A stretch of 64,000 nt of DNA from Cocleimonas flava. GTDB lineage: Bacteria; Pseudomonadota; Gammaproteobacteria; Thiotrichales; Thiotrichaceae. The translations under genes were made by a program, and so were the position numbers. The notes under the pieces were generated by a model. That model was given only the letters and a program-made list of their open reading frames with translations. It was not told the origin of the DNA and searched no databases. The stretch lies in assembly GCF_004339015.1 (NCBI RefSeq), contig NZ_SMFQ01000003.1, positions 682,001 through 746,000 on the forward strand, read 5' to 3'. Shown here piece after piece: positions 22,595 to 34,811 of this stretch. Numbering within the stretch: the first letter of the stretch is position 1; every line of letters begins with the position of its first letter.

Positions 22595-22623
22595 GTCACC
22601 TCCCTACTTTGGGGCACTTTTTT
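22595..22623 (+). repeat. C-rich dispersed element, copy D1
   Basis: GTCACCTCCCTACTTT then GGGGCACTTTTTT, with one C-to-T change in the C run. It follows livK and forms the left arm of the hairpin with copy D2. Confidence 0.85.
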
Positions 22624-22646
22624 CTCATTAACGAAATTTGTTACTG

Positions 22647-22675
22647 AAAAAAGTGCTTATAAGTAGGGGGGTGAC
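22647..22675 (-). repeat. C-rich dispersed element, copy D2
   Basis: Read on the minus strand: GTCACCCCCCTACTTAT then AAGCACTTTTTT. The GGGG of other copies is AAGC here, so internal pairing is lost while the CCTACTT core is kept. It is the opposed partner of D1. Confidence 0.85.
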
Positions 22676-25417: not shown

Positions 25418-26109
25418 TGTCTTTGCTCAGAGTCGAACACATAGCCGTCTTCTATGGCAAATCGCAGGCATTGTTTGATGTCAGTCTTGAGATCAATCCC
25501 GGCGAAGTTGTAGCTCTAATGGGGCGTAACGGCGTGGGTAAATCAACCACAATACGCGCTATTTGTAACCTCACCCCCCCACTTACAGGCACTATTTCAT
25601 TAAACGGTAAAAATCTGGCGAAGTTGCCAACGCATGTCGTTGCACGAAAAGGAATCGGGCTCGTCCCAGAAGGACGCCGTTGTTTTGCGAATTTAACGGT
25701 CGAAGAAAACCTGTTAGCGACAGAAAGAAAGGGCCAATGGGATATGCAGAAAATTCATCAGCTGTTCCCTCGATTAGAAGAACGCAGCAAACAATCTGCC
25801 GCGACTTTATCGGGCGGCGAACAACAAATGCTAGCGATTGGCCGCGCTTTATTAACCAATCCAAAGTTATTGATTTTAGATGAAGCCACTGAAGGACTTG
25901 CCCCTGTAGTCAGGCAAGAAATCTGGGCTGCTATTCATAGACTGAGAGAAAACGGGCAATCGATATTACTCGTCGATAAAACTCTTAAGGAATTACTCCC
26001 TGTATGCGATCAATGCTTTATATTGGAGAAAGGCCAATCTGTCTGGAATGGTGCACCACAAGCGTTGACGGATGATATTAGTAGTCGGTATTTGGGAGTT
26101 AGTACTTAA
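25417..26109 (+). CDS. livF: Branched-chain amino acid-type ABC transporter ATP-binding protein
   Basis: The second ATPase of the transporter, 230 residues. It shows Walker A GRNGVGKSTT, GLVPEGRRCFANLTVEENL, signature LSGGEQQMLAIGRAL and Walker B LILDEATEGLAP. One departure is VDKTLKEL where most LivF proteins have a switch-region E-Q/H, though LVDKT variants are known in this subfamily. The start overlaps the livG stop by one base. Codons for LTPPLTG near residue 55 are written with a DNA match to the C-rich repeat (25570-25597). A strong bidirectional terminator follows. Confidence 0.92.
   Translation: MSLLRVEHIAVFYGKSQALFDVSLEINPGEVVALMGRNGVGKSTTIRAICNLTPPLTGTISLNGKNLAKLPTHVVARKGIGLVPEGRRCFANLTVEENLLATERKGQWDMQKIHQLFPRLEERSKQSAATLSGGEQQMLAIGRALLTNPKLLILDEATEGLAPVVRQEIWAAIHRLRENGQSILLVDKTLKELLPVCDQCFILEKGQSVWNGAPQALTDDISSRYLGVST
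25570..25597 (+). repeat. C-rich repeat match inside livF
   Basis: CTCACCCCCCCACTTACA then GGCACTATTT matches the intergenic element at almost every position, with a single A in the T-tract. It is in frame and encodes Leu-Thr-Pro-Pro-Leu-Thr-Gly-Thr, which is a normal sequence for the LivF loop. Confidence 0.5.
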
Positions 26110-28694: not shown

Positions 28695-28733
28695 ATCTAT
28701 TGTTGCTGGGGATTAAAGAACGTCGTTTATTCT

Positions 28734-28767
28734 GGAATCTACGATGGACTTTTCTGGCTCTTGGTGA
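28734..28767 (+). repeat. GGAATCTACGATGGA...GGCTCTTGGTGA unit, copy 1
   Basis: GGAATCTACGATGGACTTT then TCTGGCTCTTGGTGA. The same unit recurs at 28841-28873. The left palindrome arm upstream of this copy is degenerate (CGTCGTTTATTCT). Confidence 0.7.
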
Positions 28768-28823
28768 AGTTTTGATAGTAGCTTTTGAGTCTTAAGGACA
28801 GTAGTTGTTGATCGACCATTGTA

Positions 28824-28853
28824 CATCGACGATTCCTTACGGAATCTACGATG
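28824..28853. repeat. Palindrome CATCG-GATTCC-TTAC-GGAATC-CGATG, copy 1
   Basis: Hairpin with outer arms CATCG/CGATG and inner arms GATTCC/GGAATC around TTAC, with a two-by-two internal loop. It is followed by the CTTGGCTCTTGGTGA block and C-rich copy E, in the same order as at 32376. Confidence 0.75.
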
Positions 28854-28873
28854 GACTTTCTTGGCTCTTGGTG
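28841..28873 (+). repeat. GGAATCTACGATGGA...GGCTCTTGGTGA unit, copy 2
   Basis: GGAATCTACGATGGACTTTC then TTGGCTCTTGGTGA. Near-identical to copy 1, 107 bases downstream, and directly joined to C-rich copy E. Confidence 0.75.
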
Positions 28874-28884
28874 AGCCTAAGAAA

Positions 28885-28913
28885 GCCACCTCCCCACTTA
28901 CGGGCACTTTTTT
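28885..28913 (+). repeat. C-rich dispersed element, copy E
   Basis: GCCACCTCCCCACTTACG then GGCACTTTTTT. It follows the GGCTCTTGGTGA block and lies between the sulfite-oxidase-like gene and the secreted glycosidase-like gene, both on the + strand. Confidence 0.85.
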
Positions 28914-29143
28914 GCTTGTTTACAAAGTAAACTAACGATTAACCAGAAGTAATTCATAAACTTACATATATTCGTGCAAGCCACTTAAGGAAAGGTTAAA
29001 ATCGCCTGAACTATTCAAAAGGGGTCTGTCAAAGAAGTAGCAAGCGTATCACGCTTGAGCGCTTTTACAGTTCGAATATAAGGCAAAAAACTCTAGGCAG
29101 TTTTGATTTATTTGCCAGAAAATCATAGGAATAAAGAATAAAT

Positions 29144-30852: not shown

Positions 30853-31767
30853 ATGTCATTTAGCATGGGTGATTCAGGTGATCCTTGCCCAATCGGTGTT
30901 TTTGATTCAGGACTTGGTGGACTTTCCGTACTTCGGGAAATCCACCAACTTCTTCCCCATGAAAATCTCATCTATGTTGGTGATTCAGCGCACGCGCCCT
31001 ATGGCGACAACAGTGCTGAATACGTCCGCAACCGATCACTCATCGTTTCTGAATTCCTCTTGGACCAAGGTGTAAAAGCCATTGTCGTTGCCTGCAATAC
31101 AGCAACTGCCGAGGCGATTGATCTTTTAAGAGTGACTCTAGATGTTCCTGTGATTGGCCTGGAACCAGCCATTAAACCCGCTAGCAAATTGAGTAAGAAT
31201 GGCATTATTGGTGTTCTTGCAACTCAACGGACGATAAACAGTGAGCGACTTCTGGGTTTAACAGAACAATATGCGGCAGATAAACGCGTATTAGCTCAGG
31301 CATGTCCCGGATTGGTAGAGCAAGTAGAAGCATGTGAACTTGAATCTGAAAAGACAAAAGACTTATTGAAGCACTACATCACCCCCCTACTTACAGAGGG
31401 TGTTGATGCATTAATTCTTGGCTGCACACATTACCCTTTCTTGATCGACGCCATTCGAGATATTACTAACGGCATCGGCGCAGGCATAAATAAAGACAAA
31501 AATATTGAAATCTTAGAAACAGGCAAGCCAGTTGCCGTGCAATTACAGCGCGTGTTGGAACAGCATGATCTACAAAGAATCGTGCATGGAAACACTTATT
31601 CCGCAGACGAAAAACAAAACCATTTGAGTAACATCAGCTTTTATAACAGCAGTAAAGACCCAGTCACCCTTAATAGTATGAAACAGCTATGGCAACGAAG
31701 TTTGCAGAAATCAATCAATCCCATAGCCATAAAAGCCCTTCCTGCGCTAGAATACGGCCATGACTGA
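30853..31767 (+). CDS. murI: Glutamate racemase
   Basis: A 304-residue cofactor-free racemase that makes D-glutamate for peptidoglycan. Family motifs are IGVFDSGLGGLSVL at the N-terminus, VVACNTATAEA with the first catalytic Cys and LILGCTHYPFL with the second. ATG at 30853 adds an N-terminal tail MSFSMGDSGDPCP before the family core, so the exact start is uncertain (an ATG five codons in is possible). It overlaps darP by eight bases. Codons for ITPLLTEG are written with a match to the C-rich repeat. Confidence 0.93.
   Translation: MSFSMGDSGDPCPIGVFDSGLGGLSVLREIHQLLPHENLIYVGDSAHAPYGDNSAEYVRNRSLIVSEFLLDQGVKAIVVACNTATAEAIDLLRVTLDVPVIGLEPAIKPASKLSKNGIIGVLATQRTINSERLLGLTEQYAADKRVLAQACPGLVEQVEACELESEKTKDLLKHYITPLLTEGVDALILGCTHYPFLIDAIRDITNGIGAGINKDKNIEILETGKPVAVQLQRVLEQHDLQRIVHGNTYSADEKQNHLSNISFYNSSKDPVTLNSMKQLWQRSLQKSINPIAIKALPALEYGHD
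31379..31400 (+). repeat. C-rich repeat half-match inside murI
   Basis: CACCCCCCTACTTACAGAGGG matches the first half of the element exactly but not the CTTTTTT end. It encodes Thr-Pro-Leu-Leu-Thr-Glu-Gly, which is normal for this place in MurI, so codon choice or chance may explain it. Confidence 0.35.
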
Positions 31768-32296: not shown

Positions 32297-32375
32297 TTTT
32301 GTATTAAGGAAAATTGCCCTGAAATTAAAGTAAATCCAAAGTATCAATAAGCTCTTATCCAGCGTAAACACTGTA

Positions 32376-32405
32376 CATCGACGATTCCTTACGGAATCTG
32401 CGATG
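32376..32405. repeat. Palindrome CATCG-GATTCC-TTAC-GGAATC-CGATG, copy 2
   Basis: Same hairpin as at 28824 with one base changed (TG for TA in the internal loop). Here the following GGCTCTTGGTGA block is separated by about 60 extra bases flanked by TTTGGCT on both sides, then C-rich copy F follows. Confidence 0.75.
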
Positions 32406-32493
32406 GAGTTTGGCTAACTTAGCGTTTCGTTTGTTGAAACGGATAATTCGATAATTTGGCTTTCCATTTCTGGCTCTTGGTGATCCTTAAAAA

Positions 32494-32522
32494 GCCACCC
32501 CCCTACTTATAAGCCTTTTTTT
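32494..32522 (+). repeat. C-rich dispersed element, copy F
   Basis: GCCACCCCCCTACTTATA then AGCCTTTTTTT. It lies 200 bases after darP in the same direction and ends the second composite repeat. Confidence 0.85.
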
Positions 32523-32861
32523 ATTTCTTATCTAAACGCTTAATCGTTAAATAACCCAAATGCCTATTTTCAGGAATCTTCTTCTGCTTATCTGCAAGTG
32601 TTAGTAAATTGCATGAAAAGCGTTAAAATGGTTCACTAATATATATTGACCACATTACAATGAAAAATAAGCATTAGGCAATGTATGACTAAACAACTTT
32701 AAGTCTCTAATTATCCTAAATAAATCCATTTTTACCATTCAGGTTTTTACTAATAATAGTTATGAAAGAAAAACACACCTTAACGCAGTTTCACAATTTT
32801 CATTTTCAAATGCTTGTTTGAATCTATTTCTATAGAACGTTAATAGACAGATATTGAATAG

Positions 32862-34811
32862 TTGAGACCACCATTGAATTTTAGAGAAGACATAAATGGA
32901 TTAAGAGCTATCGCTGTAATGGTAGTAATGCTTTTCCATTTCGAACCCGCATGGGCTCCTGGTGGATTTGCGGGTGTCGATATTTTCTTTGTTATTTCAG
33001 GCTTTTTGATGACTGGAATAATTTTTAAGGGCATTGCAAACGATAGTTTTTCAATCTTAAGGTTTTATGCTGCCAGAGCCAATAGAATCATACCTCCGTT
33101 ATTTGCGCTCTGTGCCACACTGTTAATCATAGGCTGGTTTGTATTAACCCCTGCGGATTACAGAAACCTCGGGATTAACTCAGCCGCAAGTTCGGTGTTT
33201 ATTTCAAATATCATCTACTGGCTTGAATCGAGTTACTTTGCTCCTGGTGTTGAAAATAATCTGTTACTACACACATGGTCTTTATCCGTGGAATGGCAGT
33301 TCTATCTCATATATCCGGTTTTTCTGCTCTTTTTAAGTAAATTTCTATCGATTAATAACATCAAAAAATTACTGATAGTAATCACACTACTGGGCTTCAG
33401 CTATAATTTATACGCCAGTGTATACAGCCCGAGCGCTGCTTACTACTTATTGGGATCACGATTTTGGGAGATGACCATTGGTGGTCTGGCTTTCTTATAC
33501 CCCATTGCTTTTACAAGAAAAAAGAGCATCGAAGCAATCGGTTTATTGCTTATTTTGGCGTCGTTCATCTTTGTTACCAAGAATGATTTATGGCCGGGTT
33601 ATATGTCGTTACTGCCTGTTGTTGGTGCTTACTTAATTATCATCAGTCATACCGAAAATTCACCTTTTACGACAAATCGACTCTCACTTTTTATCGGTAA
33701 GATTTCTTATTCAATTTATCTGTGGCACTGGATTGTGCATGTATTCTTATTCAAAAATGAATACGACAATCTTTACAGTAAAGTTTTTGGCATTTTAGTG
33801 TCTATTGTACTTGGTTATATTTCGTATTCCTTGTTTGAAAAGAAAAGGTATAAATTAGAAAATATTACTTTCAAAAACTTAATAACCTTCAAACCTCTGA
33901 TTTTATCATTCGCTATTTTCGGGCTTTCTGCGGGTATTTACCTTTTCAATGGCATGTTGAATTACACCTACTTAAGTCATCCGGAAGCATCCGATTACAT
34001 TTCCAAATACGAAAACTATATGGAGCGTAAAGACGTTAAAGAAAACTACGGCGTATTGAATATCGATAACAGATATGAGTCTTCGACATCGACATCGACA
34101 TCTACTTCATCAAATATAGATTCCAACCTTAAACAAAATGATGGTGTGTTTCTGTGGGGAGATTCTCATGCAGATGCCCTCGCCTATGGTCTAGAGAAAA
34201 TATTTAAAGCGAATAACGTTAAATTTCAGGCAACTACAGCTCAGTCTTGCGGTGCGGGTTTAGGCATTGGTGCAAATATAAAGAAAAAGGGCACGGATGA
34301 CTATAAGCAATGCGTTGAAAGCAATACCTTTGCAGTCGACTTTATAAAAACACATAAACCTTCTGTAGTGATATTTGCCCAACATAAAGACCATGATCTG
34401 AACAACTTTGATCAAATAGTCGATGAAATAGCAAATAAAAATATTAGCTACATCATCGTCGGGCCAGTACCACAATGGAGAGGCACTTTACCCTCCAGAA
34501 TTGCATACACTTCGTTAGATCCTAAAGATAAGTACCTGGGCAGTATTCGACCCTGGATTCTTCCTCTGGATCAAAAAATGCAACAGAAATACCAACAGAA
34601 TAAGAATATTCGTTACCTATCTCTGATAGATAGGCTTTGTACGAAAGACGATAAATGTCTGGCTAAAGTAGATGATAAGAATAGCCCTCTGGTGTGGGAC
34701 TATGGACATCTCAGTCTGGAAGGCTCTTATTATGTGGGGCAAAACATTATTTACCCCGAAATAAGTAATCTTATCAATCAGTCTGCAATGACAAGCCAGA
34801 TCGAGCAATAA
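32862..34811 (+). CDS. OafA-like membrane O-acyltransferase with C-terminal SGNH domain
   Basis: A 649-residue fusion. Residues ~5-370 are an acyltransferase-3 domain with about 10 helices (FREDINGLRAIAVMVVMLFHF, GVDIFFVISGFLM, LLHTWSLSVEWQFYL). A Ser/Thr linker near residue 410 is coded by a hexanucleotide repeat. Residues ~425-640 are a periplasmic SGNH esterase-like domain with GDSHADA (block I Ser) and YGHLSLEG (catalytic His). Such proteins O-acetylate LPS or other surface glycans. Start is TTG at 32862, or TTG at 32874; no ATG is available. Confidence 0.87.
   Translation: MRPPLNFREDINGLRAIAVMVVMLFHFEPAWAPGGFAGVDIFFVISGFLMTGIIFKGIANDSFSILRFYAARANRIIPPLFALCATLLIIGWFVLTPADYRNLGINSAASSVFISNIIYWLESSYFAPGVENNLLLHTWSLSVEWQFYLIYPVFLLFLSKFLSINNIKKLLIVITLLGFSYNLYASVYSPSAAYYLLGSRFWEMTIGGLAFLYPIAFTRKKSIEAIGLLLILASFIFVTKNDLWPGYMSLLPVVGAYLIIISHTENSPFTTNRLSLFIGKISYSIYLWHWIVHVFLFKNEYDNLYSKVFGILVSIVLGYISYSLFEKKRYKLENITFKNLITFKPLILSFAIFGLSAGIYLFNGMLNYTYLSHPEASDYISKYENYMERKDVKENYGVLNIDNRYESSTSTSTSTSSNIDSNLKQNDGVFLWGDSHADALAYGLEKIFKANNVKFQATTAQSCGAGLGIGANIKKKGTDDYKQCVESNTFAVDFIKTHKPSVVIFAQHKDHDLNNFDQIVDEIANKNISYIIVGPVPQWRGTLPSRIAYTSLDPKDKYLGSIRPWILPLDQKMQQKYQQNKNIRYLSLIDRLCTKDDKCLAKVDDKNSPLVWDYGHLSLEGSYYVGQNIIYPEISNLINQSAMTSQIEQ
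34083..34100 (+). repeat. (TCGACA)3 hexanucleotide repeat in the acyltransferase linker
   Basis: Three exact TCGACA units, then TCTACTTCA, coding for a Ser-Thr repeat between the membrane and SGNH domains. Unit changes would keep frame and only alter linker length. Confidence 0.75.

Follow-up and report, generated by a model that had tools for sequence, protein, structure and literature searches.

Architecture of the element in the window

The window analysed here is a 64,000-nt stretch (G000:C2:682001-746000) of the 4.49-Mb genome of Cocleimonas flava, in which genes are long-ORF calls made by our own script and not annotation, seven of the window's ORFs having been checked with Pfam. At two sites, 28720-28913 and 32372-32522, a palindrome, a GGCTCTTGGTGA block and a C-rich element follow one another in this order, as the original prediction had claimed. 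The predicted palindrome is present, but its letters had to be corrected to CATCG-AC-GATTCC-TTAC-GGAATC-TA-CGATG (TG-CGATG at the second site), with a 2 × 2 internal mismatch.

The first site opens with a truncated unit on the + strand (28734..28767), composed of the right arm of a first hairpin, H1 (GGAATC TACGATG), and the core of a second hairpin, H2. This is a direct repeat of 28841-28874 (94%), lies one 107-nt period ahead of the full unit, and corresponds to what had been noticed earlier as an extra partial unit in front; the related genome G007 has one unit here, with H1 likewise truncated. After a spacer (28768..28819, +), to which a spacer within the array at C3:491.7 kb is similar by eye, comes the full H1+H2 unit (28820..28887, +), the best match of covariance model R1 at 100.4 bits, this unit being one of the model's own source sequences. 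The stems of H1 lie at 28824-28828/28849-28853 and 28831-28836/28841-28846, and those of H2 at 28856-28862/28879-28885 and 28863-28867/28873-28877, all on the + strand. The C-rich, uptake-like motif occupies 28882..28913 (+) and consists of AAAG, which it has in common with the 3' arm of H2, a core (28887-28899) and a T-run. Folding of 28818-28915 yields both hairpins at -33.8 kcal/mol; the motif alone folds to only a 3-bp hairpin. The second site carries a long form of the same element on the + strand: H1 (32372..32407; 93% to 28817-28859, R1 match C2:714372) is separated from the GGCTCTTGGTGA block by about 60 nt that include a further hairpin (CGTTTC..GAAACG, 32408..32470), followed by the H2 core (32471..32490) and the C-rich motif (32491..32522, core 32496-32508).

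The three parts differ in how rare they are. The palindrome GATTCCTTACGGAATC has two + strand copies in the window, where a search with at most two mismatches gives four matches (each palindrome counting in reverse too), while shuffled sequence averages 0.01. The expectation that it recurs elsewhere in the genome holds as well, with 23 places at one mismatch or fewer and none in the control; the repeat is genuine and far more frequent than chance would allow. The GGCTCTTGGTGA block is not rare on its own, with six occurrences at up to two mismatches and 3.58 expected, and its three exact copies all lie within the elements. The C-rich core, CACCYCCCYACTT, has 14 copies in the window. Among these are an inverted pair (22597..22673, cores 22597-22609 on the + and 22661-22673 on the - strand), a core within the glutamate racemase gene (31380..31392, +; Asp_Glu_race, PF01177) and a core with extended flank within an ABC-transporter ATPase ORF (25572..25584, +; PF00005).

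The hairpin unit in the genome and the genus

The H1+H2 unit, about 70-80 nt long, was read at 24 loci of G000, all with one architecture. This count is a lower bound, given further model matches at C2:426976 (80.7 bits) and weaker ones such as C1:809855, and it excludes reverse-strand palindrome matches, which are the same hairpin read backwards. H1 follows the plan (T/C)GTAC(A/G)TCGAC-GATTCC-TTRY-GGAATC-TACGAYG, and H2, 3' of H1, the plan CTTTCTT-GGCTC-TTGGT-GAGCC-T-AAGAAAG. Tandem arrays of two or three units, spaced 107-168 nt, occupy seven of the 24 loci; their spacers are near-constant inside one array and mostly differ among arrays, and only the last unit of these arrays has a complete H2 3' arm. 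Beyond the second window site, the long form is found at five loci (C2:833.5, C2:1228.9, C4:469.4, C4:476.6 and C4:688.9 kb). Gene context was assessed at 23 loci (C4:476565, one of the 24, lies outside this set): the midpoint of the unit falls outside ORFs of >=90 aa at all 23, the unit end overlapping the next ORF by 13 nt at two, and the gene upstream shares the strand of the unit at 15 loci and lies on the other strand at eight. Searches against Rfam returned no match for the window at the gathering score and none for 10 loci at E <= 1. H1+H2 is a new structured intergenic repeat.

The pairing within the unit is conserved. In an alignment of 18 G000 units, eight of 23 pairs change on both sides, and both-sided cells number 28, compared with 8.6 in shuffles (0/500) and at most two in slid controls. 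Across the genus, 31 units show both-sided changes in 16 of the 23 pairs, with 80 both-sided and eight one-sided cells (shuffles 24.7, 0/500), in an alignment fitted to the covariance model, which favours covariation, and in which an individual pair can be broken in as many as 7 of 31 rows. Helices in RNA usually evolve by way of G-U pairs. In both H1 and H2, double changes are nearly always Watson-Crick and one-sided (G-U) changes are rare, so the structure is probably kept at the DNA level, as a palindrome or a single-stranded DNA hairpin; the compensatory Watson-Crick changes across the genus favour such a DNA-level structure. A structured RNA was considered and rejected on account of the lack of Rfam matches, the variable orientation to genes and the rarity of one-sided changes.

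The unit is found in 9 of 12 genomes of this marine genus with the first covariance model and in 10 with a broader one (G005 by a single weak match), the latter matching only one of 51 other genomes of the family (G027, with 7% contamination). Units of the relatives keep the same plan with strongly different sequence. When genome contigs were searched with the palindrome pattern, a search that may omit the window's genome, the only named matches were four contigs of the uncultured Cocleimonas isolate 4-1410. Of 21 units of the relatives, 11 have TTGC in front and GCA behind, flanks that could close a third stem and that are not kept in the G000 units read.

Comparison with G007 shows how the repeat differs between close genomes. 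At the first window site the difference is exactly one 107-nt unit, with which gain and loss are equally compatible, and the array at C3:491.7 kb gives overlapping BLAST pieces as expected if G007 has one unit fewer. At the second window site, G007 lacks both the element and the next gene, which encodes an acyltransferase (PF01757; window 32300-34811); in G007 the DarP (yjgA) gene is followed by an inverted C-rich pair and then by a gene that, by eye, is the window's lipoyl synthase gene. The few presence/absence comparisons made, including C4:33.8 kb and C1:179.8 kb against G007, were not clean and gave no clean empty site; nor did they disclose the target-site duplications that the original prediction had suggested looking for. 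An autonomous partner next to the units was sought among ORFs around 22 G000 loci and 22 loci of relatives, those similar between loci being identified: three LysR regulators, two acyltransferases and two S24 peptidases (one with a LexA DNA-binding domain) recur, and so do, with no identity assigned, a short ORF pair and one ORF flanked by two copies. Such a partner was rejected, there being no transposase among the identified ORFs shared between loci. Two copies free of the C-rich motif, C3:237203 and 238497, flank in direct orientation a 295-aa ORF without a Pfam match. Integron attC sites were also considered, and their core sites were not seen by eye. As a separate observation, a gene for a Y1_Tnp (IS200-type) transposase of 146 aa lies on G001:C70 (1792-2232 of the stretch read), within an array of tandem copies in the form that the element takes in the relatives.

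The C-rich motif

The genome holds 934 exact CACCYCCCYACTT cores, distributed 647:287 between the strands, compared with one for the reversed control, and the consensus over 74 distinct aligned copies is about AAAGYCACCCCCCYACTTWNRGGCNCTTTTTT. Placement was assessed in 59 readable 20-kb stretches (1.18 Mb) spread evenly over the four large contigs; one stretch, G000:C1:325679-345678, is all N and was omitted from all counts. Judged by midpoint, 233 of the 269 cores in this sample lie outside and 36 (13%) inside ORFs of >=100 aa, which amounts to about 1.5 cores per kb outside such ORFs and about 0.2 per kb overall. Cores wholly inside ORFs number 35, compared with a mean of 0.325 (maximum 1 in 40 shuffles) when synonymous codons are shuffled within genes. 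These coding copies preserve a good part of the A-run ahead of the core and of the T-run behind it, and the motif thus seems to be kept as DNA even where no transcript end is expected. In the glutamate racemase gene, there is no gap over 17 codons relative to six core-free relatives, so this copy arose by substitution. Two coding copies of the window were compared with G007, and both are present there.

For the 225 intergenic copies that have a gene on either side, the neighbouring genes both share the motif's orientation at 74, both oppose it at 54, converge at 68 and diverge at 29, a split which indicates that motif orientation is only weakly tied to transcription. Given that 142 of these copies are co-oriented with the upstream gene, a terminator role retains some room. 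Even spacing and indifference to the strand of genes are characteristic of uptake sequences. The C-rich core is spread more evenly than a Poisson distribution would give (counts per 20 kb: mean 4.56, variance 2.29, P 0.0005), and neighbours within 150 bp among the 269 cores form 16 tail-to-tail and four head-to-head pairs. The arms of tail-to-tail pairs are alike, matching at 6.1 of eight variable positions compared with 3.8 for random pairs.

The motif comes in species dialects, read from word counts and C-run context (in G002 and G009 from only about 12 and 15 kb). The C-run is followed by TACTT in G000, G007, G011, G003 and G008, with different preceding letters, by ACCTT, CACTT or TACTT in G006, where GTACA precedes it, and by TGTTT in G010 and G002. 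A pattern covering all dialects has 139-988 copies in 9 of the 12 genus genomes and few or none in the rest (G005 0, G004 9, G001 12). In 51 other genomes of the family it shows no excess, with 0-16 copies just as in the reversed controls (0-16), and the TACTT version has 0 or 1 copy in each of 21 genomes from other families of the class. From these counts, the motif is confined to the genus within the family and patchy within the genus. Competence gene content does not track it: ComEC (PF03772) is found in 11 of the 12 genus genomes, including the three motif-poor ones, and 10 of the 14 controls, E. coli among them, have it too, but it was not found in G003, which has 679 motif copies in a genome that is 89% complete. 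A further finding in G010 is a family of words related to GATAGGCCTTGGTTGGTTACA, present about 24 times in 110 kb and conceivably a CRISPR repeat.

Two repeated sequences that meet

The C-rich block follows the last or only hairpin unit at 19 of the 24 loci, with an exact core at 14 and a variant at five. It is lacking at C2:805701, C2:958482, C3:237203, C3:238497 and C3:513309, so the junction is to be taken as a tendency. At the junction itself, the last letters of H2, AAAG, are also the first of the motif, which starts AAAGYC; units of the almost motif-free G001 and G004 finish with AAAGCA or a similar sequence. In G010, two listed units have the motif on the other strand, and at G010:C59:12394-12529 and C16:658-849 the unit lies between two oppositely oriented C-rich motifs. 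Another arrangement is seen when G000:C1:858.7 kb is set beside G007:C33:16.3 kb: a pair of inverted C-rich motifs encloses the element, and the sequences outside the pair seem to have changed places between the two species, resembling an inversion between motif copies, with the inner unit in the short form in one and the long form in the other.

Our preferred reading, to which we assign a probability of about 0.6, is that two independent repeat systems touch here, a DNA-level repeat of the genus and a likely uptake signal, the latter sitting at the end of the former via AAAG. H1+H2 would act as DNA, both hairpins being maintained as Watson-Crick palindromes; the number of units would change by recombination between them, a mechanism suggested by the one-unit difference, and the unit, as a non-autonomous element, may have reached its dozens of intergenic sites by mobilisation. 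The C-rich block would most likely be a DNA uptake sequence, a role to which its observed distribution points: conspecific DNA carrying the motif would be taken up preferentially, and biased recombination would accumulate it evenly, mostly outside genes and in either orientation, while inverted motif pairs may double as terminators. At the point of contact, the AAAG(C) end of H2 already matches the start of the motif, so that few changes would be needed to complete it.

The original prediction held that palindrome, block and C-rich element form one mobile or duplicated cassette, and part of it stands, the hairpin part being dispersed, structured, non-coding and present in many copies and tandem units, with no gene of its own. 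A single composite, MITE-like transposon with the C-rich element as its end would explain the common order and joint at 19 of 24 loci and the occurrence of copies both in tandem and dispersed, but 934 C-rich cores face only 24 hairpin loci read, five of these loci lack the C-rich part, and G001 and G004 carry hairpin units while hardly having the motif. Since the hairpin unit occurs without the C-rich motif, an outcome that the original prediction had itself named as its refutation, the three parts do not make up one cassette; the other-strand motifs next to two units of G010 likewise speak against a single mobile unit, and the racemase copy shows no insertion relative to motif-free relatives. 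We therefore regard the composite transposon as quite improbable. Terminators need no fixed 13-nt core with species dialects, and this tells against the motif being the intrinsic terminator of the genus, with the hairpin unit as an accessory 3' structure and both acting in RNA. This explanation would suit the T-run after the core, the 142 of 225 intergenic copies behind a same-strand gene, the 68 between convergent genes, and the inverted pairs, which are able to form long hairpins; pairs with a T-run at gene ends also resemble the intrinsic terminators that contain DUS/USS pairs. However, only 16 tail-to-tail pairs within 150 bp occur among 269 cores, many copies are antisense (54), divergent (29) or intragenic (35), the T-run is retained in divergent and intragenic copies, the motif alone forms the 3-bp hairpin described for the first window site, and one-sided (G-U) changes are almost absent from H1 and H2, all of which leaves the terminator explanation unlikely.

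The hairpin part alone could be an element of the REP/REPIN type, with a RAYT (IS200-like) transposase as its mobiliser. With REP, BIME and REPIN elements H1+H2 shares intergenic palindromes, compensatory stem changes, units grouped in tandem, and mostly unidirectional or convergent sites; in the available portions of the REP literature, known REPs carry GTAG and CGTC tags, and the - strand of H1 has GTAG ahead of the core stem in 15 of 18 G000 rows and CGTC after the stem in most. Genes resembling RAYT do exist in the genus. H1+H2 nevertheless lacks both REP features examined, an unpaired GTAG/CGTC at the palindrome end, the GTAG of H1 lying inside a longer stem, and a RAYT gene in the genome, PF01797 giving no match in G000 at E <= 0.001. 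It also comprises two different hairpins in fixed order and orientation; the tags are not kept in the genus, GTAG not being seen in relatives such as G001, G003 and G004; and G-T pairing, often observed in GTAG repeats according to the same portions, is rare. PF01797 is missing from 5 of 10 unit-bearing genomes, G000 among them, and present in both unit-free genomes, G002 and G009, and a RAYT-driven REP was rejected because the presence of unit and gene is unlinked across the genus; the wider REP-type explanation is rather unlikely. In G007, a 178-aa ORF above the PF01797 cut-off (C26:12.4-13.0 kb) adjoins, by eye, other, classic GTAGGTCGGATAA-type REPs, which are unlike H1. KOPS and AIMS are polar chromosome-architecture signals, and a comparable role of the C-rich motif, read by a DNA translocase, would accord with a motif strand that follows GC skew in most of the sample, C1 0-0.87 Mb being unbiased (22:21). 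Region by region, however, much the same bias is found in other C-runs, which may include degenerate motif copies, so the strand bias may stem from replication-linked base composition, and on this ground it was rejected as a replication signal. Given also the common inverted pairs, the extended AT-rich flanks and the dialects, an architecture signal is very improbable.

The reading as two touching systems finds parallels among known repeats. In the available portions of five papers, uptake sequences are marked by abundance, copies within genes, inverted pairs at gene ends and dialects, and self-DNA recognition by them is named for Neisseriaceae and Pasteurellaceae only (PMC3630211, PMC2397512, PMC12616744, PMC13020248, PMC1852404). 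Measured against these portions, the C-rich motif resembles DUS and USS in its short fixed core, in its hundreds to about a thousand copies, some of them within genes, in its inverted pairs at gene ends and species dialects, and, with its AT-rich flank, extended USS in particular. It differs in a core unrelated to published DUS and USS, in a host of the order Thiotrichales (Gammaproteobacteria), and in its sparser distribution (about 0.2 per kb) and 647:287 strand bias. Its share inside genes, 13%, also contrasts with the 34-39% tabulated for Neisseria in the accessible part of PMC2397512. Further literature drawn on, likewise in part, comprises PMC3733652 and PMC8266576. The hairpin unit, compared by features and not by sequence, is reminiscent of repeats of another kind. 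ERIC and BOX are modular, structured, dispersed intergenic repeats with no transposase of their own and with an optional inserted module. H1+H2 shares all of these features and differs from them in the C-rich signal motif joined at one end.

The C-rich block is put forward, from its letters and distribution, as a candidate uptake sequence of a lineage for which none is described as far as could be searched, no uptake sequence reported for this group having been found in the open-licence literature. We would give even odds to the proposal that it is an uptake sequence whose origin is separate from that of the Neisseriaceae and Pasteurellaceae signals, that it has dialects of its own (C6 plus TACTT, ACCTT or TGTTT cores and A/T-rich flanks), and that it has come to extend the ends of a hairpin repeat specific to the genus. 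The hairpin repeat, for its part, is a case of a multi-copy structured repeat with no RAYT gene found in the genome. The evolutionary reason for uptake sequences is presented as debated in the portions of the literature available. If the proposal is true, Cocleimonas would add a third, unrelated lineage with dialects and motif-less congeners, in which molecular drive and selection could be tested against each other by comparison, and it would offer a fresh system for finding the uptake receptor.
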